Origin: Bodo saltans
Taxonomy: Eukaryota > Euglenozoa > Kinetoplastea > Eubodonida > Bodonidae
NCBI GenBank assembly: GCA_001460835.1
Contig: CYKH01001117.1
Span: 7,589-63,108 of the forward strand
Direction: 5' to 3'
DNA: 55,520 bases
This document shows positions 57 through 9,897 of this stretch, one piece after another. The first letter of the stretch is position 1, and each line of letters begins with the position of its first letter. Position numbers and translations under genes: made by a program. Below the pieces are notes generated by a model. That model made no database searches. It had not been told where the DNA came from and saw only the letters and a program-made list of their open reading frames with translations.

Positions 57-1844
57 ATGGACAGTGATCACCATCACCAAGACATTGTGATGCCCCCAAA
101 CGCAGGCGGCGGCGGCCTGCGTTTGTGGTGGTCGAAGTTTAACAACGCTGAGGACCCCCCACCAGAAGCGACGGCATCTCCAATCGTAAATTTATTGTCA
201 CTGAATAACACACATCACTCTGGTACACAAGAAGAAACTGATCTAATGATTCATGCTGCTGGCTTACATGACACAGATGATACATTTACTACTGTCATCC
301 TGCACGAAGACATTATTGACGCTACTATCACAGTGATGTCCGTCTGGTACCTTGGTCATGGTAGTCACTCGAACGCTATTCATAACTTTTTATCTCGGAC
401 TCCACATCGGCTATTCATAAAGGAAGAAGCATCGTGGAGTGGAGATCAATGGTTAAGCGATTCAACGATTACCTTGTTACAGTCGAATTTTATGCATCAT
501 TTAAGTCCTAGCGGTGACAATCCTACCGAACTACTTGCATTTAGTCCACTGCCACCGGAGTCTTACGCACTTTTTGAGCCTCAACTGCATCATAACTCTT
601 ACGACATTTCATCAGAAACGAACAATTTTTATTTGCATAGCACCGAAGTTACTCTACAAGTTGTTGATGTTACCGATGTCGCTGATGTTATTGATGCTGC
701 TGATGTTACTTATGGTGCTGATGTTACTGTTACGGCAATCCCTGCGCCGCAGGGACCTTGCCACTTGCAAGCTATTCTAAATGTCCAGCAGAAGTTTCGA
801 AAGACATTTTCAGGCTTGGAGTATTTTATCTACCAAGACTTAACGCGCCGTGTCTTGCGCGAGCCAACACAGTTCAAAATGCTTGTGTCAGTTACGAACC
901 TTGGTCAAAGTCTATCCCCAGAACTCATCGAACGCCACGTTACCCAACTTATTGCGAACGCGTATCGCTGTCAAAGCGAGGCGGACACCCCTGAGGCTCA
1001 GTACGTCTGCACACTTGGCCACGACACCATTGTACTGTCCGTCGCGTTTCCATTTATTGAAGGCCTATCACACGAGGAGGCAATACGACAATTCGTGCTC
1101 AACACGTCGTTTCGTTTCTTGATGGACGCTGATGGATACTGGAGTGATCCGTCGAGGTACTTTTTGAGGGAAGTGAGCGTCCATTACTCGTTGATGTCGC
1201 GCCGCCCCCGCACCGGGAGTCCCAGGCTACTTGTAGAATTTTCTCCGCTTCTGTGCGACTCGATGCTAGATCTTGTGTTGCGCATGCCCACTGCTGCCAA
1301 TAAGAGTTTACTCTTGAATAACCTTCTCAACTCAACAGTGTTGGACCACTCAGTGCCGCTTGCACGTGATGGTGTGCCGCCTCAAGTGATGCCACATCAA
1401 GGACCAACGTGCATCTTTTCGATTCAGAATTTTCCCTTTGACATGCTCTACGGCCATATCACTCCGTCGACTGATCTGACGAATGTTACTGCACCCTCCC
1501 AGTGGATTGATCGGCTCATCTCGATTTCGTACCCACTGTGGGAACAAAAACCTCGATGCACTATTTACAAGTGGGGCCCTGAGACAAATACCTTGGAGGT
1601 TCAAGTGGTATTTCCATCACTCCTCGTTCCATTGACGGACACAGTAGATGAATTTATGAACCGGGTGTCAGTACGGTTTGTTATGGGAAGTCCTCACGAC
1701 GGAATCCAGTGGCCGCTGTTCTCGATTTACGCGCCTCGACGTACTCGTCGTGATACTCGTCGTGTCCAGCCGTTAACATTTACACTACGCGCGTACACCG
1801 TGCCAATCAATCCCAACAGCAAAGAATTTGATGAGCAAGAGTAA
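57..1844 (+). CDS. Tandem-family protein 1 (LMD..G.W.D family), three-module member
   Basis: I do not recognise this 595-residue protein, but it is the largest member of a family repeated through the first 10 kb. It holds three related modules. A degenerate one is at about residues 85-165, a canonical one at about 235-400 with the core FRFLMDADGYWSD at 352-364, and a degraded one at about 443-585 (core RFVMGSPHDGIQW). Each module runs from a hydrophobic strand-like stretch with N-L/N-F, through a helix, to [L/V]-S-V-x-F, the core, and a closing L-x-F-x-P. An Asp-Val-rich repeat at about residues 202-225 links the first two modules. There is no signal peptide or membrane segment. The ATG at 57 is the first in frame; only 56 bases lie upstream, so a start outside the window cannot be excluded. 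The canonical module is very close to the one in the gene at 2426. Function unknown; gene call confident. Confidence 0.8.
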   Translation: MDSDHHHQDIVMPPNAGGGGLRLWWSKFNNAEDPPPEATASPIVNLLSLNNTHHSGTQEETDLMIHAAGLHDTDDTFTTVILHEDIIDATITVMSVWYLGHGSHSNAIHNFLSRTPHRLFIKEEASWSGDQWLSDSTITLLQSNFMHHLSPSGDNPTELLAFSPLPPESYALFEPQLHHNSYDISSETNNFYLHSTEVTLQVVDVTDVADVIDAADVTYGADVTVTAIPAPQGPCHLQAILNVQQKFRKTFSGLEYFIYQDLTRRVLREPTQFKMLVSVTNLGQSLSPELIERHVTQLIANAYRCQSEADTPEAQYVCTLGHDTIVLSVAFPFIEGLSHEEAIRQFVLNTSFRFLMDADGYWSDPSRYFLREVSVHYSLMSRRPRTGSPRLLVEFSPLLCDSMLDLVLRMPTAANKSLLLNNLLNSTVLDHSVPLARDGVPPQVMPHQGPTCIFSIQNFPFDMLYGHITPSTDLTNVTAPSQWIDRLISISYPLWEQKPRCTIYKWGPETNTLEVQVVFPSLLVPLTDTVDEFMNRVSVRFVMGSPHDGIQWPLFSIYAPRRTRRDTRRVQPLTFTLRAYTVPINPNSKEFDEQE

Positions 1845-2425
1845 CTCTGGATAGCTGACGTCATACGGAGGGGCACGTTGACAGCCACGGCTGAAAAGAT
1901 TGCAGGAAAGAAGAAACTCGCACAAAGTCCGTGTATCGTGTCGGATGAGGTTAGGTGATGAACGAAGCCAAGGAAACCGATGTGGGGCTTCCTATCGTCA
2001 TACTTCACACGAACACACAAAAAATAAATTGCCGCCGAATTGTGAAGATCTGAGGTGCTGGAAGGTTTTGTCGTTCTTGGTCTTTGCTGAGAAAAGCGTG
2101 ATTAACGGTTGAGCAATCTAAAAGCTTTGTTCAGACCAGTGAATTCAATTTGGAGATCTTCTTAGTTACTCTTGTTTTTGATTTTGTTGTTTTGTTGCCC
2201 CCTTTTTTTTTTGTCCTCGATTAGGACGCTTCGGACATTACTATTAACGCTCAAACCCCCACAACACAACCAAACAACAACCCATCGCATCACGAGACAC
2301 GTGATTACAGCCCAAACGAAAAAAAAAACTGTCGCACGCATCAAGAGCTAGAAACACACACACACACGCGCACGCAGGTAGAACATCCACCCAACCCAAA
2401 GAAAATACAACTTTCACCATCGGCA
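1845..2425. other. Intergenic region between family genes 1 and 2
   Basis: No supported gene. It holds the presumed 3' UTR of the first gene, a T-rich tract ending in AG at 2223-2224, and a CA/CG dinucleotide-rich stretch around 2353-2377 in the presumed 5' UTR of the next gene. Confidence 0.6.
2190..2224 (+). promoter_or_regulatory. Predicted trans-splice acceptor for gene at 2426
   Basis: A pyrimidine-dominated run with a long T stretch ends at the first AG (2223-2224), about 200 bases before the ATG at 2426. This matches the layout of kinetoplastid spliced-leader addition sites. It was predicted by eye. Confidence 0.5.
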
Positions 2426-3640
2426 ATGCCAGCAGCTGCGCAAGAACACCACCACTTGCAAGCCATTCATCGTGCCCAACACCTATCGAGTGGAGACTCT
2501 TCAAAGTTGGAGTACTTTGGCTACCACGACACAACGCGCCGTGATTCCGCATCGATGTTGCAGCGCACGCCAACACAGATCCACGTGCTCATGTCAGTCA
2601 AAAACCTTGGTCAAAGTCTATCCCCCGAACTAATCAACCGCCGCGTTGAACAACTTCTGATCAACGCGTATCGCTGTCAAAGCGAAGCGGACACCCCTGT
2701 GGCTCAGTACGTCGGCACACTTGGGCATGAGATCATCCTGTCCGTTACATTTCCAGGAGTGGAAGGCCTATCACGTTCGATGACCATTCGACAATTCATG
2801 CTCAACACCGCGTTTCGTTTCTTGATGGACGCTGATGGATACTGGAGTGACTCTTTGCGGTACTTCTTGAAGGAAGTGAGCGTGAACTACTCGTCGATGG
2901 GGCACCGCGCCCGCACCAGGCTCAGTGGAGGGAGTCCCACACTGCTCGTAGAGTTTTGCTTGTTACCGTCGTGCGACTCGCTGCTAGATCTGATGCAGCA
3001 TTATTACCACATGCCCACTGCCAATAAGAGTTTTCTTTTGAACAGCCTTTTCAACTCACCATATCTGGACCGCCCAGTGCCTGTTCCCAGCGATGGTATG
3101 CCGCCGCAAGTGATGCTCCAACAAGGACCAACATGCGTTATTGCGGTGGAGAACTTCCCCTACGACATTCTCTACGGCCATCTCACTCTGACGACTGATG
3201 TGACGAATGTTATCACCCCTCTCCAGTGGTTTGATCGACTCATCTCGATATCGTACTCACTGTGGGAGCAATGCCCTCGATGCAGGTCTTGTGCGTGGCG
3301 TCCTGAGACAAATACCTTAGAGGTTCAAGTGGTATTTCCACTCCCCCACCAACCCGCTTCGTTGGACGACAACCTGCAAGAGTTTATAAACTGCATGTCG
3401 AATCATTTCCTGTTCGAACTGGATTGTATTCGACACCTCCCAACCCGGCAGCATTTATTCCGCATCACGTCTCCGCGACAACGTCACGTTGCTCATCCAA
3501 CTGCGCGCCGAGACCCACTGATCTTTACGCTTCTTGGCATGATGGTGCAACAGGAGGTGGCAGTTGAAGTTCACGCCAACGACGAACCTGCTCTTGTCAT
3601 TGACGAGGGTGGTTTCCAAAATTCTTCGCACAGTGGGTAA
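2426..3640 (+). CDS. Tandem-family protein 2 (LMD..G.W.D family), two-module member
   Basis: This 404-residue protein of unknown function is closely related to the gene at 57. It lacks that gene's first degenerate module and Asp-Val linker and starts just ahead of the canonical module. Shared stretches include NLGQSLSPELI, NAYRCQSEADTP and the core FRFLMDADGYWSD. The second module begins near the QGPTC motif and ends near the PLIFTL segment, and its core motif is degenerate as in gene 1. An extra tail rich in Val and Glu follows. The ATG at 2426 is the first in frame after a good splice-acceptor tract. The similarity over both modules points to a duplication with loss or gain of the N-terminal module. 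No membrane segment or known catalytic motif is visible. Confidence 0.8.
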   Translation: MPAAAQEHHHLQAIHRAQHLSSGDSSKLEYFGYHDTTRRDSASMLQRTPTQIHVLMSVKNLGQSLSPELINRRVEQLLINAYRCQSEADTPVAQYVGTLGHEIILSVTFPGVEGLSRSMTIRQFMLNTAFRFLMDADGYWSDSLRYFLKEVSVNYSSMGHRARTRLSGGSPTLLVEFCLLPSCDSLLDLMQHYYHMPTANKSFLLNSLFNSPYLDRPVPVPSDGMPPQVMLQQGPTCVIAVENFPYDILYGHLTLTTDVTNVITPLQWFDRLISISYSLWEQCPRCRSCAWRPETNTLEVQVVFPLPHQPASLDDNLQEFINCMSNHFLFELDCIRHLPTRQHLFRITSPRQRHVAHPTARRDPLIFTLLGMMVQQEVAVEVHANDEPALVIDEGGFQNSSHSG

Positions 3641-4111
3641 TCGACGTTGTCAAGTACTACACTCCAGTGCGTTTGATTCTCGCGTGATGAGAAACGACCA
3701 CGGTAAAGATATGGAGTTTCCCTTGTTTCTTGAATTCCAATTGCTTGGGGAGATGAAGCTTTTGGAGCAAGATTAAGAAGGGAAAAGATCTTTTCCATTT
3801 TCGCTTCTCCTCACAGTTTTTAATGGCAAGCGGGTGCTTTTCCATTATTTGTTCGTGTAGCATACGGCTCCGGCGAAACGTCCGTAAAACCTACTATTCC
3901 TCTGTTCCTTTTTGTGTTGTGGTCGATTGTTACAGCCAATTGAAAGACTTTAGGATTTTTCGTCACTGGCCCGTGACTTCCTGTGAGGTGCCATAGTATT
4001 GCACCTTCTCTTTTTTTTTTTTTTTCGTTCTTACAGCGTTCATCGCGCAGAGACAAAAAGTCGATTGTAAACAATTTCGCTTCAGTGCACGCCAAAAGAA
4101 AAAAAGAAGAA
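3641..4111. other. Intergenic region between family genes 2 and 3
   Basis: No supported gene. It is A/T-rich UTR-like sequence with a strong T tract near 4010-4026 that ends in AG at 4035-4036, the predicted acceptor for the next gene. Confidence 0.6.
4005..4036 (+). promoter_or_regulatory. Predicted trans-splice acceptor for gene at 4112
   Basis: A CT-rich run with about 15 consecutive T is followed by the first AG at 4035-4036. The in-frame ATG at 3983 lies upstream of this tract, so this site decides in favour of the downstream start at 4112. Confidence 0.55.
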
Positions 4112-4696
4112 ATGAGCCAACATCTGTTGCGGAATGCCAAGGGCCAATGGTGTGTATACATTCCGTGCGTGTTGCCTCGTGACGGGTCACTTCGTCATTC
4201 ACATGCAGTGCAGTTAGCAGCATCAGAGCACCCCGCGCTCCCCTACCCCGAGCTTATCACAACGGAGAATGCACCTGTGAGTGAGCCTCGGGAACAGTTT
4301 CAGCCAACTTTGAGGGTGATGTTTTCCCTCCAGAACTTTGACCCCTTTACCTGTGGCCCCCTTGATATTGTGAATCGGTGTATCGATGATGCATTTTCTG
4401 CAGTCCCGCGGAACCTACGCCCCACAGCTGTGGATTGGAGTGCTGGCGAATCGATGACGCTGGTGTCTGTGTGGTTCGCTGATCCTTCGGGGCTCGCGGT
4501 AGCGGAATTCACCAATCTGATGTCAGGACGTTATCTTCAAGATCGACTGGGACTGTGGAATGATCCAAGCCGCCGACTGCTTCGCATCGTGGCGCGAAGG
4601 TATTCTTTGATGAGTGCCGCGGAAACGAACGACGCATTAGGCAGTCTTCCCACCGCTCCCCTGGAGTTCTCACCAGTGCTCCAAATTCGACGGTGA
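4112..4696 (+). CDS. Tandem-family protein 3 (LMD..G.W.D family), single module
   Basis: A 194-residue protein with one complete family module. The module starts near the FSLQNFDPF motif, continues through MTLVSVWFAD, has the core RYLQDRLGLWNDPSRR, and closes with LPTAPLEFSP. In the core L-M-D is changed to L-Q-D, while G-x-W-x-D-P-S-R is kept. The reading frame is open upstream to an ATG at 3983, but a T tract plus AG at 4035-4036 separates that ATG from 4112, so I place the start at 4112. Function unknown. It is the simplest intact copy of the module and the best template for defining its borders. Confidence 0.75.
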   Translation: MSQHLLRNAKGQWCVYIPCVLPRDGSLRHSHAVQLAASEHPALPYPELITTENAPVSEPREQFQPTLRVMFSLQNFDPFTCGPLDIVNRCIDDAFSAVPRNLRPTAVDWSAGESMTLVSVWFADPSGLAVAEFTNLMSGRYLQDRLGLWNDPSRRLLRIVARRYSLMSAAETNDALGSLPTAPLEFSPVLQIRR

Positions 4697-5125
4697 CAAG
4701 AAAAAAACACACAAACATTTTCCTCTTTGATCGAAACGAAATTTGTCTTTCGTACCACCAGAAATCGATTGTGCTGATATTGATGTGTGGTTTCTAATGT
4801 TCTGTCTTGTGTACTGTGCACACGTACGCGGATCAAAGAGCATTTCAACTGCAGCGACATCGTATCAATTGGTCACAAAAGTTTCTTGACATTCGCACAT
4901 TGGTACATTGCATTTTTTTGTTTGAGGACGTTTCGCTTCTCCGGCGATGCAATGCTGTATGGGATAGACTTGCTGACGAGTAATGGTGTTGCAGCAGTTT
5001 CGTTTCATACTACGCATAAAGCTCATCGCTGTGACAAACGCTTTGCTGAATAATTTCACCTTTTCGTCACTTAGGAAAACTTCCGGACAACTTTTCCGCT
5101 TCCAATTGTCTCGTTTGTCTCACTT
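4697..5125. other. Intergenic region, first copy of a duplicated spacer
   Basis: No supported gene. From about 4750 it resembles the spacer at about 5695-6040. Shared blocks include a TACCACCAGAAAT block, a CACATTGGTACATTG block and a GCAATGCTGTATG block in the same order, showing that gene and spacer were duplicated together. Confidence 0.65.
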
Positions 5126-5528
5126 TTGCACCAAGATTCTCATAAACGAGCATCACCAAGTAGCTCTACGTTTTGTTGCATGCACATCATGGTCCACTGC
5201 CAGGCTGTCAGCCATGTTGCAGCACAAAATCCTTCGATGATGCATCCAGAGTTTCTGGAGTTCGCATTCAATGCTCCTGACGCCACCCCACTTTTCACCA
5301 ACTCAGGATTTCTTATTGAAATCGAAGTGGCACACCTCGGCCCACCATCATCAAGCGGTGCATGGCACTGCGACGCTTGTCGTGGAGTTGCGGTGGGCAG
5401 TGAATTCCCTTGGCCGCGCGGTTGATGACTTCTGCCAGCGCCTGTCGCACCGTTTCCTTATGGACCGACCCGGATCGACGGTTCTTGCAGATTATTTCCG
5501 AATCTTACCGCTTCCTATCTCACGATAA
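5126..5528 (+). pseudogene. Broken copy of the family gene at 6152
   Basis: This stretch matches the gene at 6152 along its length but cannot make the same protein. The N-terminal part (QAVSHVAAQNPSMMHPEF against QAVCRVAAQNPSLMHPAF) is in one frame. Compared with 6152, 107 bases are missing after the CACCTCGG at 5333-5340, which shifts the frame. The downstream part (GRAVDDFCQRLSHRFLMD) therefore continues in another frame. A second loss of 17 bases removes the G-x-W-x-D half of the core motif right after ATGGACC near 5460-5466. Homology is clear from about 5180 onward and the 5' border is uncertain. Both losses look like simple deletions in a redundant copy. Confidence 0.75.
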
Positions 5529-6151
5529 GGAGCTTAGAGGGCGATAGCGCCTCTAATGTTTACGTCAAGTCCTACCTTACGGCGGGCGTAGCTGTTCCGA
5601 ATTCACAAGGTTAGTCCACAAGAGTATGCACGCAAACCCAGAACAAAAATTTCTCACCACTTCCCCTAATTTGGTGATGACAACCATATTCTTTTCATGT
5701 ACCACCAGAAATGAGATTTTCTTCCAGATCCCACCAGAAGATCTGCTGAGTTGATGTGATAATGTTCTGCGTAATGCACACATACGCACTGCACACATAC
5801 GCGATTTCAACGCCACATCATACAGCGTTTCTTGACATTTGCACATTGGTACATTGACATTCTTTTTTTGTTTGTTTTGAGAGTGTTGACGTCTCCGCTC
5901 TCCCTGTGCAGACAATGCAATGCTGTATGAGATAGACTTTGCTGATCAGTAATTTGTGCTTGCAGCGGTCCCTACTTCATACACACATGATGCTTATCGT
6001 TGTGACACACACTTTTTCTGGATGATTTCACCATTCCCTTAAACTGCTAGTTCACCTTTCCGTTGCCATATGGGTCCAGTTTATCCTCTTCTTTCTGTTT
6101 TGCTTTAGACAAGCGGAGAAAACACAGAAGCCAAGCGAAATTACCGCCGCC
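5529..6151. other. Intergenic region, second copy of the duplicated spacer
   Basis: No supported gene. About 5695-6040 is the diverged second copy of the spacer at about 4750-5060. A short inverted repeat (TTAGAGG ... CCTCTAA) lies at 5534-5556 just after the pseudogene. The 3' end carries the splice-acceptor tract for the gene at 6152. Confidence 0.6.
6080..6108 (+). promoter_or_regulatory. Predicted trans-splice acceptor for gene at 6152
   Basis: A CT-rich tract is followed by the first AG at 6107-6108. This leaves a 43-base 5' UTR before an ATG preceded by GCCGCC. Predicted by eye. Confidence 0.5.
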
Positions 6152-6715
6152 ATGCCATCGGACGATTTGATGCCCACCACCAAGACTCACTCTCAAGCTG
6201 TCTGCCGTGTTGCAGCACAAAATCCTTCGCTGATGCATCCAGCGTTTCTGGACTTCGAACCGCAACTCATCGTCCCTACTCCACCCTTCGCCAACGTTGG
6301 ATTCCTCGTTCCGATTGAAGTGGTGCACCTCGGCGGCTCACCGTCGTCTCTGTACCCCCTTGCTTCGATCATGAATCAATGCATCCGTCATGCTTACGCC
6401 AGCGTGCCATGCGATCCCCCGCGAGTGGCATACTGCCGCAAACCGCGTGATAGGATGATGCACGGCACTGCGACGCTTGTCGTGGAGTTCCGGTGTGCAG
6501 TGAATTCCCTTGGCCGTGCGGTTGATGACTTCTGCCAGCGCCTGTCGCACCGTTTCCTCATGGACCAGCAAGGCATGTGGAGCGACCCGGATCGACGGTT
6601 CTTGCAGCTTCTCACTCACGACGGGGAACTCAGCGGTTGTGCGATAAAGCCGCTCGTGTTGTCGTCACGCTCCACGATGCCGGTTGGCATGGATGTTCCG
6701 AAGTCGCAGGGGTAG
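6152..6715 (+). CDS. Tandem-family protein 4 (LMD..G.W.D family), single module
   Basis: A 187-residue protein of unknown function and the intact relative of the pseudogene at 5126. The module starts near FANVGFLVPIEV, passes TATLVVEFRCAV and has a textbook core, SHRFLMDQQGMWSDPDRRFL, at about residues 131-150. After the core it departs from its relatives. The usual Y-x2-M-S followed by LPT and L-x-F is missing, and the end is a short unrelated tail. The C-terminus may therefore be truncated or frameshifted relative to the family. The ATG at 6152 sits 44 bases behind the predicted splice acceptor and has a strong initiation context. Confidence 0.7.
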   Translation: MPSDDLMPTTKTHSQAVCRVAAQNPSLMHPAFLDFEPQLIVPTPPFANVGFLVPIEVVHLGGSPSSLYPLASIMNQCIRHAYASVPCDPPRVAYCRKPRDRMMHGTATLVVEFRCAVNSLGRAVDDFCQRLSHRFLMDQQGMWSDPDRRFLQLLTHDGELSGCAIKPLVLSSRSTMPVGMDVPKSQG

Positions 6716-7030
6716 CCCCCACGAGAGCAAGCACACATGTGTTGGACAGGATATCTCATCGAATGCTCTATTTTGTTTTCTGCAAAGATCGTCATGATAA
6801 TGGTGATCTTTGAGGTAAAACGGATGGAAATTTCAAGCGAGAATTCTGAGAACCGATCTTGTGTGTTAAATCTCCCCATTCTTATGTTTCGCATTATCAC
6901 GAAGTTGTTCGGCGTTCCAAAAAAAACACACACACAAAACCACATTATTCTCGTTTCCGAAGTTAAATCTCCTTTCCTCCCCCCTTTTTTGAATTTATTC
7001 TTTCCTTCTTTTTTCTTGGTTCATCAGAAA
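6716..7030. other. Intergenic region before family gene 5
   Basis: No supported gene. An open frame continues upstream from the next gene to an ATG at 6737, but it runs through a CA repeat (about 6926-6939) and a long pyrimidine tract. I read it as untranslated. Confidence 0.55.
6968..7027 (+). promoter_or_regulatory. Predicted trans-splice acceptor just before gene at 7031
   Basis: A long CT-rich tract is followed by AG at 7026-7027, only three bases before the ATG at 7031. If used, the leader-free 5' UTR is three bases. The AG at 6960-6961 is an alternative that gives about 70 bases. Confidence 0.4.
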
Positions 7031-8053
7031 ATGACCCGTCAGACGATCCTTCGTCCCCAATTCACGAAGCGGAAGCGTGCGTGCCCACGACCGAGAGGTC
7101 CACTCGCCTCGCGTTCTTGTTTCCAAGTGAAGCCACTCACCACGGCTAGTCAACTGGACCTTTGTAATGATATCGATGAATTTCAACGCAAGCATTCCTC
7201 AAGGAAGAAATCTGCTCCGCCAGGGCTACACTTTCTGTCCCCTGTGTCGAGCAAGTCTGATTTGACTGGGCTGACTGAATCCGACGATGATTGTTCTCAC
7301 ATCAGCTCTCACGTCAGCTCTCCGACATTTGTAGCTTTCATCGAACACCTCACGCCAGTCGAGCGTGATGCTCCTCCTACCCCCGCCAACATCTGTGAGG
7401 TTGACCTTGCAGAATATCGGCTCGATCCTGAAGGCACATTCGATCAATGTCCTCACAAAGGAGAAGTTAAGGTGATGCCTGTAACTTCAAACAACCAGGC
7501 GACCACGACAGTTGTTACCGCACACTCTTCCAGTGTCGTTCACCAGCCAGTGACACAGGAGTTGCGTGATCAACAAGTAATAAGCCTGTTAAGAGGTCCT
7601 CGTAGAAAGGTCGTCGATGATCCATATCCTACAGCGCCGTCGGTACTGCAGAATATTGCTCCTATTCATTTTGCGGCACTCGTGCACCTCTGGAATATGA
7701 TGTGTCCCCCAACACCATTCCCAACATTTCTCCCGTTCGGTGACACCAATTTCTCTTCCCCAAGGTCTCAAAACGGCTATCACAACGGTTGGATATCCGT
7801 GGACTTTACCGTCAAGCAGTACGCAGTCAATCTTGAGGATGCGCACTTGCTCGCGCGTGCCGCCTCAAACTGCTACCTTATGGACCGCTATGGTGTGTGG
7901 GTGGACCCAACAGCGAGCATGTTCCAGCACCTTAGCGACACGTACCGCCGCATGACGCCTGCTCAAAGTGATCGCCACAACCAGACGTGTGGGCTGCCCA
8001 CTGGATCGCTCATTTTCACTGTGTCCCCCTTCCCCATCTTCACTTGGCGTTGA
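7031..8053 (+). CDS. Tandem-family protein 5 (LMD..G.W.D family) with disordered N-terminus
   Basis: A 340-residue protein of unknown function. The first 200 or so residues are basic, then Ser/Asp-rich, and look disordered. They include SDLTGLTESDDD, which resembles SDFGGLSDMSDD in the gene at 8470. A shortened family module follows, with DFTVKQYAVN then directly the core NCYLMDRYGVWVDP, Y-R-R-M-T, and the closing LPTGSLIFTV. Relative to 8470, about 70 residues between VKQYA and the core are absent. I choose the ATG at 7031 because the in-frame ATG at 6737 lies upstream of the pyrimidine tract. No membrane segment is visible. Confidence 0.75.
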   Translation: MTRQTILRPQFTKRKRACPRPRGPLASRSCFQVKPLTTASQLDLCNDIDEFQRKHSSRKKSAPPGLHFLSPVSSKSDLTGLTESDDDCSHISSHVSSPTFVAFIEHLTPVERDAPPTPANICEVDLAEYRLDPEGTFDQCPHKGEVKVMPVTSNNQATTTVVTAHSSSVVHQPVTQELRDQQVISLLRGPRRKVVDDPYPTAPSVLQNIAPIHFAALVHLWNMMCPPTPFPTFLPFGDTNFSSPRSQNGYHNGWISVDFTVKQYAVNLEDAHLLARAASNCYLMDRYGVWVDPTASMFQHLSDTYRRMTPAQSDRHNQTCGLPTGSLIFTVSPFPIFTWR

Positions 8054-8469
8054 GCAACTTATGGAGATCTCCGACGAGGGGAGAGCCTGCAGCTATGTGA
8101 ACGAGAGAAACATTCAAAGAAAACGTAAGAAACAAAACAAAACAAAAAAACCATGAAAATGATCCAGAGTTGAGGACATAGCTTGGAAGGACTGGGCTTT
8201 TCACTGCCGTGTTATGATGCACCTACGAGAGGCCCTCCCTCCTTCTCCTCGAAAATTCTTTGGCCAATTGATTCAGTGAGAGCGGGGCTGCACATTGTGC
8301 GTTGCTTCGCCACTATTGCTAAATCAAAACCCGTCTCCCGCCTTTTTGCTTTTAAATTGCCACACAAAGCTTGCTCGTTTTATGTTGCGTTGCTCCATTT
8401 GTTGTTGTCTTACCAAACAAAGACTGTTTCTCTTCTTCAGAGAGGAACCACCCACCCACCAGTTTCACA
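8054..8469. other. Intergenic region before family gene 6
   Basis: No supported gene. It begins with A-rich, CAAAA-repeated 3' UTR-like sequence and ends with a pyrimidine tract whose CAG at 8438-8440 is the likely splice acceptor for the gene at 8470. Confidence 0.6.
8424..8440 (+). promoter_or_regulatory. Predicted trans-splice acceptor for gene at 8470
   Basis: The CTGTTTCTCTTCTTCAG-type tract gives a 29-base 5' UTR before ATG 8470 and argues against the in-frame ATG at 8371. Confidence 0.5.
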
Positions 8470-9897
8470 ATGTCCCGCAATCAACAACCCCAACAACCGC
8501 TGCCAACCTTCGGTGGCTCTGGCCGCCGCGCTACACATCTTCCCCAACATGCCCCGAAAAAAATGCGCAAAATGCCACTGTTGCCTCTCATCCGCATAAA
8601 AACGCCCAACCAGCAGGAGTTTCATCACCGATCTGGAGTATCGTGGATGCCTCTAGCGTCACCATGCTCCGGTGCGATGCTGGACTCCTGTCTGAACGAT
8701 TGGCTGCGCAGCACGTCGACGGCCGTCAATGAGCCAAAGCCAAACCTGAAGGTGTCATCCTGGCGATGCCCGCTGTCCCCTGTCGCCAGTGGCTGTGACT
8801 TAGCCGGAATGTGGGGAAGCAACTCAGATTTTGGTGGCTTGAGTGATATGTCCGACGATGGGGGCAGCTCCTCCACATGGGGCTCCCCAGCACGCCAGCT
8901 AAGCAGTATGTTTCCGTCAAGCAATGAGGTCGATGCACCGCTCGCAGAAGAGAAAGAGAAGGTCGTCGTTGACGATCATCGTTGTGCCACACCAACCGAG
9001 GAACTCCCCTTCGCACAAGTTTCTTGCGTTGCTGGCACTTCTGTGAGCGTGCGCGACGACGACGACGACGTCACGATCACTGGTCTTTCACTCGTGACGA
9101 ATGTTTCATGCATGCCACATGGCGCACTTCATGACGTTTCAGACGACGAGTACATTCAGCCGTCTGGACGACCACCCTCGCCACAACCGCCGCAACCCAC
9201 CGCCCCATCGCTGCACAGCTCCACCCAGCACGAGCCATCCGCCCCAGTCACTGCTCGCAAGAATAATCCGTACACTCCTGCTCTTCCCTCGTACCATCTG
9301 AAGCTCGCACCGGCGTGGATGAGTCCTCATGGTCTTCACGCAGCTTCGATCGCCTCTGCTTGCATGCTCAGTGGATGCCCCAGTCGTCCTTTGTTCCTGC
9401 CCTTTTCCAGCGACGTGTTTGCGACGCACGACAACGGCTGCACTAATGGATTCGTCGTTCCGATGGTTGTCAAGCAGTATGCCAGCAACGAATGGCTGCG
9501 CCACGGTGGCGATGCCTTCAACCCACTTATGTGCCTCAACGGTTGCATTGCCGTTTTGTTTGAGGGCACCCCACAATGGAAGCGGCCTGTTGTGGTCGGC
9601 TTTTCTCCTCGGTGGCATCAGAACGCCCACGGCACTTGGTTCCCCTCCGGTCTCCTCTTTATCGATGTTTGGTTTCCAACCGACCTAGGATGTGACTGGA
9701 GTCGTACCGTCGCTGCATTTGCGTCCCGCATGTCGCACTGCTTCCTGATGGACCGCTGCGGTGTGTGGTATGACGCCTCGCGTCTCGCTCTCAGTGCGGT
9801 GCAGCGGCACTACAAGTCGTCCATGAGCCAAGACCAGCGCCACAAACTGACGGATGGGCTTCCGACTGGTGCCCTGACCTTTGAGATGGCCTACTGA
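8470..9897 (+). CDS. Tandem-family protein 6 (LMD..G.W.D family) with long acidic N-terminus
   Basis: A 475-residue protein of unknown function and the last member of the array. The first roughly 270 residues are low-complexity, with Gln/Pro, Ser/Gly and an acidic DDDDD run. A Pro-rich hinge (PSPQPPQPTAPS) leads into a complete C-terminal module: FVVPMVVKQYASNEW, then LLFIDVWFP, the core SHCFLMDRCGVWYDASR, a Y-x3-M-S helix end, and the closing LPTGALTFEM. It is closest to the gene at 7031 but keeps about 70 residues that copy lacks. The ATG at 8470 lies 30 bases after the predicted acceptor. The open frame extends back to 8371, and I consider that part untranslated. Confidence 0.75.
   Translation: MSRNQQPQQPLPTFGGSGRRATHLPQHAPKKMRKMPLLPLIRIKTPNQQEFHHRSGVSWMPLASPCSGAMLDSCLNDWLRSTSTAVNEPKPNLKVSSWRCPLSPVASGCDLAGMWGSNSDFGGLSDMSDDGGSSSTWGSPARQLSSMFPSSNEVDAPLAEEKEKVVVDDHRCATPTEELPFAQVSCVAGTSVSVRDDDDDVTITGLSLVTNVSCMPHGALHDVSDDEYIQPSGRPPSPQPPQPTAPSLHSSTQHEPSAPVTARKNNPYTPALPSYHLKLAPAWMSPHGLHAASIASACMLSGCPSRPLFLPFSSDVFATHDNGCTNGFVVPMVVKQYASNEWLRHGGDAFNPLMCLNGCIAVLFEGTPQWKRPVVVGFSPRWHQNAHGTWFPSGLLFIDVWFPTDLGCDWSRTVAAFASRMSHCFLMDRCGVWYDASRLALSAVQRHYKSSMSQDQRHKLTDGLPTGALTFEMAY

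Follow-up and report, generated by a model that had tools for sequence, protein, structure and literature searches.

A tandem array of genes sharing a module of predicted RRM-like fold in Bodo saltans, with three dispersed relatives

The window analysed here is a 55,520-nucleotide stretch of the Bodo saltans genome (GCA_001460835.1, contig CYKH01001117.1; C456:7589-63108), which lies within a 29.3-Mb genome assembly of 934 contigs. Positions 57-9897 hold, on the + strand, six open reading frames (ORFs) and one broken copy, and a domain of about 125 residues (the module) is common to all of them. The original prediction had described six genes and one pseudogene sharing one module; the ORFs, BLASTP and the recovery by profile of nine of the nine module copies confirm this. 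The module counts along the array, given as 3, 2, 1, 1, 1 and 1, also hold, with the A and C modules lacking the LMDxxGxW core. The features are as follows.

57..1844, + strand: gene p1, with modules A, B and C; 595 residues counted from the first in-window ATG
177..557, + strand: module p1A, degenerate, without the LMDxxGxW core, the weakest member (profile match, shuffles)
870..1253, + strand: module p1B, core FLMDADGYWSDPSR (alignment and profile match)
1404..1799, + strand: module p1C, core gone (alignment and profile match)
2426..3640, + strand: gene p2, with modules B and C; 404 residues (ORF, BLASTP)
2576..2968, + strand: module p2B (alignment, profile match, AlphaFold2 model of whole p2)
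3128..3544, + strand: module p2C (profile match, low-confidence model)
4112..4696, + strand: gene p3, 194 residues, single module at 4307-4681 with YLQDRLGLWND (ORF, profile match)
about 5195-5532, + strand: pseudogene, a broken copy of p5 in tandem with it (tblastn, stops)
6152..6715, + strand: gene p5, 187 residues, single module at 6296-6676; diverged C-terminal part (ORF, profile match)
7031..8053, + strand: gene p6, 340 residues from the likely start at 7031, module at 7784-8032 (ORF open from 6737)
8470..9897, + strand: gene p7, 475 residues, single C-terminal module at 9445-9894 (ORF, profile match)

The p1 frame runs open up to the window edge, and the 7588 contig bases 5' of the window are all N, which hides both the true start of p1 and the left end of the array. 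For p6, a start at 7031 is more likely than one at 6737, since a 23-base pyrimidine run followed by an AG precedes 7031.

The copies form one family. All-against-all BLASTP connects p1, p2, p3, p5 and p7 with one another at E values no worse than about 1e-4; p6 matches p3 (E 6.8e-6) and p7 (E 5.3e-9). Each copy was also scored with a profile built of other copies and compared with 1000 shuffles of itself, and all nine outscored every one of their own shuffles. The six motif-bearing modules reached 34.7-66.2 bits (best shuffles 4.6-9.7), p1C 12.7 bits (4.7) and p2C 13.1 bits (10.9), and for p1A the margin was very narrow (11.0 bits against 10.3). In the alignment of the six motif-bearing modules, five core residues never vary (L, D, G, W and D). 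Retention of the full core motif across members, as originally proposed, applies to five of these six in the strict form, but p3 reads YLQDRLGLW. As a DNA pattern, the strict core has five matches in 29.3 Mb, all in the array, and its reversed control has none. The p6 module keeps strand 1 and everything from helix 2 onward; the intervening stretch of about 80 residues (helix 1 to strand 3) is gone in frame, and p6 may, given this internal loss, be a decaying gene.

Sequence searches gave no assignment. Pfam had no significant match for the six array proteins, and PHROGs had none for the six modules (two families at E 0.09 and 0.41, matched by one member each, were taken as chance). Nothing significant came from PDB sequence searches either (best E 0.2, 0.66 and 0.99, likewise taken as chance), and no relative was found among 14 and 38 pattern stretches in IMG/VR or 38 in GTDB contigs. 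No earlier description of the module was found in the literature by motif strings or by Bodo plus RRM, and the available part of the Bodo genome paper (PMC4728078) contains nothing on this module family. The domain family is thus without a name in Pfam, PHROGs or PDB, as the original prediction had it, but its predicted fold, ferredoxin/RRM-like, is of a known kind.

The family is real but not confined to the array in which it was first noticed, because three dispersed genes of the same genome (C335, C928 and C350) carry the module. Whole-genome queries were made with p1, p2, p3, p5 and p7 (p6 left out). The p7 query matches C335:11167-11334 (E 0.0094); those with p1, p3 and p5 (E<=1) and p2 (E<=0.01) matched none of the dispersed genes. 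The domain of the C335 gene in turn matches C928 (1.7e-45), C350 (2.2e-5) and, reciprocally, p7 (0.0025). C928 and C350 match each other (E 2.1e-8 and 4.4e-8); C928 as query reached p7 only at E 0.055, and the C350 query of the genome did not match the array. Comparison of the array profile with that of the dispersed genes aligned 64 columns (P 7.9e-6, probability 84%), with none of 300 shuffles as high. A C335+C928 profile run on the six frames of the window found p7 (3.1e-6) and p6 (4.1e-4), with no other array frame better than 0.19 and the top reversed control at 0.78; p7 is the array member that matches the dispersed relatives best. It is mainly p6 and p7 that tie the array to the dispersed genes, because p1 and p2 alone give only P 0.0058 over 19 columns.

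In the three dispersed proteins the module is preceded by 326-436 residues of which 55-61% are Q, N, S, H, P or G (36-43% in p1, p6 and p7), and Pfam scans of the three genes returned nothing significant. A proposed correspondence between EYFxYxD, ahead of p1B and p2B, and KYFAYRD in C335 was dropped (P 0.23). The C350 member is followed, about 1.7 kb downstream, by an RRM gene (L072:7117-7578, matching C350:12760-12957).

Structure prediction and fold comparison were both suggested with the original prediction; the structure was predicted with AlphaFold2 on the window's own modules (for p3, the stretch 4301-4693). The module model has a predicted local distance difference test score (pLDDT) of 88 and a predicted template modelling score (pTM) of 0.82. 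Its order is strand-helix-strand-strand-helix-hairpin-two helices-strand, with LMDxxGxW at the hairpin; the prediction thus contains the b1-a1-b2-b3-a2-b4 order of the RRM fold, plus a hairpin and two inserted helices. The whole-p2 model was of low confidence (pLDDT 52.7) and was used for element order alone, where p2C shows a strand and helix order similar to that of the module. Foldseek returned 660 matches against PDB and 669 against BFVD at E<=10, none at E<=0.001 in either. RRM-type chains stand among the VIA rows of the structure comparison (Z 5.2-5.9), in which Pof8 (6tzn) is also listed.

The RRM/RNP domain (PF00076 and relatives, ferredoxin-like) shares the predicted order strand-helix-strand-strand-helix-hairpin-strand. 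In the module, by contrast, two helices separate the hairpin from the last strand, and LMDxxGxW lies at the hairpin. Non-canonical RRMs such as UHM and xRRM lack the usual RNP residues or carry additional helices on the RRM fold; in the module, the extra helices follow the hairpin and precede the last strand. Pop5-type chains of RNase P/MRP, a chain identity that we partly presume, may count as a further close known system.

A marginal profile match connects the dispersed genes, but not the array, with RRMs. When a profile of the dispersed genes was set against one of 30 RRMs from this genome, the two aligned along 63 columns, starting at strand 1 and reaching the MDR of the motif (P 0.0068, probability 6%), a score that one of 300 shuffles equalled. 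In this register LFVQMYP, IFVQMFP and FFVSSFP fall on RNP2 on strand 1, and SFIVFV, SFIALV and SFYAKV keep the aromatic at RNP1 position 5 but not at position 3. If RRM aromatics lie at RNP2 position 2 and RNP1 positions 3 and 5, as we assume, two of the three are retained in the alignments of all three dispersed genes. None of the six motif-bearing modules of the array has an aromatic residue at the RNP2 aromatic position, which holds S in p1B, p2B and p3, E in p5, T in p6 and V in p7. Judging by strand alternation, the RNP1 position of the array is probably non-aromatic as well. Recognition as RRM by sequence falls short in two ways: the array profile has no match to the RRM profile (65 of 300 shuffles as high), and no Pfam RRM match was obtained for the array or for C335, C928 and C350. 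We file the array as RRM-like and not as RRM, because its profile alone has no RRM match and the RNP2 aromatic is absent. A putative RRM ancestry of the module is suggested by the predicted fold order together with the marginal profile match.

The proteins p1 and p2 are 58% identical over 373 aligned positions. Over 351 aligned codons, synonymous divergence (dS) is 0.58 and nonsynonymous divergence (dN) 0.29, giving omega 0.50 (bootstrap 0.38-0.67; 0 of 2000 replicates at or above 1). Omega is 0.38 in module B (0 of 2000) and 0.51 in module C (3 of 2000), and the p1/p2 linker is indistinguishable from neutrality (214 of 2000). The nine other pairs among p1B, p2B, p3, p5 and p7 (p6 excluded) have dS of at least 1.7 or incomputably high. 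The suggestion of a selected function is therefore borne out for p1 and p2, which are under purifying selection, and the description of the family as rapidly evolving is no more than half correct. Within 400 bases upstream of five array genes (p1 could not be assessed) lie uninterrupted pyrimidine runs of 13-23 bases. In 15 other genes of the window such runs measure 7-19 bases, and random stretches have a median of 8 (95th percentile 14), a range that includes the p5 run of 13. The next AG lies within 75 bases of the ATG in three of the five genes and about 200 bases upstream in p2 and p7. The runs and AGs are consistent with trans-splicing, as a putative expression signal.

The broken copy matches p5 in tblastn pieces of 87%, 61% and 50% identity and has stops in all three frames. 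Noncoding positions 4881-4924, upstream of the pseudogene, match 5827-5870, upstream of p5 (86% over 44 bases); the duplicated unit may thus have spanned about 1 kb. An unrooted FastTree tree of the C-terminal half (76 columns) places p6 and p7 together with the three dispersed genes at local support 0.956 (inner nodes 0.515, 0.955 and 0.691) and p1B with p2B at 0.996. In a simple scenario, a p7-like founder would have been copied leftwards, and p1 and p2 would have gained core-less modules.

The explanation we favour, while stopping short of calling it probable, is a kinetoplastid local expansion of divergent RRM-like proteins that would probably serve mRNA control as protein-binding adaptors. 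The module would be a divergent RRM-like domain, a ferredoxin-like fold to which two helices have been added, after the hairpin that follows helix 2 and before the last strand. The dispersed genes, in which the module follows a long Q/N/S/H/P/G-rich part and strands 1 and 3 retain RNP-like aromatics, may be mRNA-associated regulators. A related gene would have been copied in tandem at the array locus, giving copies that miss the RNP2 aromatic, extra core-less modules in p1 and p2, and partial decay (the pseudogene and the p6 deletion). The array proteins would then most likely act through the RRM-like surface or the helical insert as protein-binding adaptors or modulators of messenger ribonucleoproteins (mRNPs), not as canonical RNA binders. 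A bolder form, which we rate as rather unlikely, is that a new kinetoplastid domain family arose from an RRM by insertion of two helices after the LMDxxGxW hairpin; dispersed members would have kept RNA-contact residues and array members shed them to become mRNP modulators, leaving a series from RNA binder to adaptor within one genome. It is possible, if doubtful, that the ferredoxin-like domain does not descend from an RRM at all but is a convergent alpha/beta sandwich that binds ligands or proteins in a role unrelated to RNA. Against this stand the 63-column alignment of the dispersed relatives with RRMs, which falls in the register expected from the model, and their RNP2-like LFV, IFV and FFV on strand 1.

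It is improbable that the array proteins have kept direct RNA binding of the canonical or near-canonical RRM kind: the predicted fold order, the RRM-type chains and the two aromatics kept by the dispersed genes would fit, but V, T, S or E at the RNP2 position and a presumably non-aromatic RNP1 position do not. We also find it quite improbable that the locus is a decaying gene cluster without present function. The broken copy, the p6 module deletion and the degenerate A and C modules point that way; constraint on p1 and p2, strongest in module B, six long open frames and the upstream pyrimidine runs argue otherwise. A domesticated HUH (Y1, IS200/IS605-type) transposase domain was suggested by Foldseek ranks 1-6, which are IS608/ISDra2 transposases (E 0.05-0.09), and by a helix-3 Tyr common to five of six aligned modules. 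It was rejected and is close to refuted, as the template modelling scores are 0.34-0.37 with a root-mean-square deviation of about 7 A, HxH is absent from all nine modules, and the pattern searches of IMG/VR and GTDB contigs yielded no relative.

Downstream of the array, Pfam identifies an ATP:guanido phosphotransferase (arginine-kinase-like) gene and an ENTH-domain gene. Ahead of the module, p6 and p7 share a [DN][DN]PY element (DDPYPTAP, NNPYTPALP), which resembles what we take to be the HNPY-type MKT1-binding motif minus its first histidine. Genome-wide, an 18-base pattern that we presume to be the 3' end of the spliced leader (SL) has 34 matches with at most one mismatch (15 exact; reversed control 0), as fits a kinetoplastid genome; 11 of the matches begin at contig base 1 or 2. 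At three of these loci (L073:1501-1518, L074:1501-1518 and L075:1-18) the pattern is followed by AAAG, AAAA and GCTG, where an SL intron would show GT; together with the matches at contig starts, this suggests a possible origin of some contigs or scaffold pieces in trans-spliced cDNA. The + strand carries 64 of the 65 listed RRM matches and all 34 SL matches, so the contigs seem oriented by transcription.

Gene control in kinetoplastids is mostly post-transcriptional. In architecture, C335, C928 and C350 are analogous by description, with no orthology claimed, to Tb927.7.2780 (presumably XAC1), ERBP1 and ERBP2 of Trypanosoma brucei. The available text of the sources describes Tb927.7.2780 as having short poly-Q/poly-H tracts and no known RNA-binding domain, and as raising a reporter about 7-fold on tethering (PMC4055773, PMC7025706). 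The same text presents ERBP1 and ERBP2 as mRNA-binding proteins without canonical domains, ERBP1 being mainly alpha-helical, unlike the module, and indicates that T. brucei has mRNA-binding or mRNA-regulating proteins without a recognised domain (PMC4055773, PMC7025706). A cryptic RRM-like domain missed by the searched profile libraries would give such domain-less mRNA regulators a testable surface. The array itself, as a local expansion, is of more limited interest; of greatest use is its connection with three low-complexity single genes, for which trypanosomatids can be searched.
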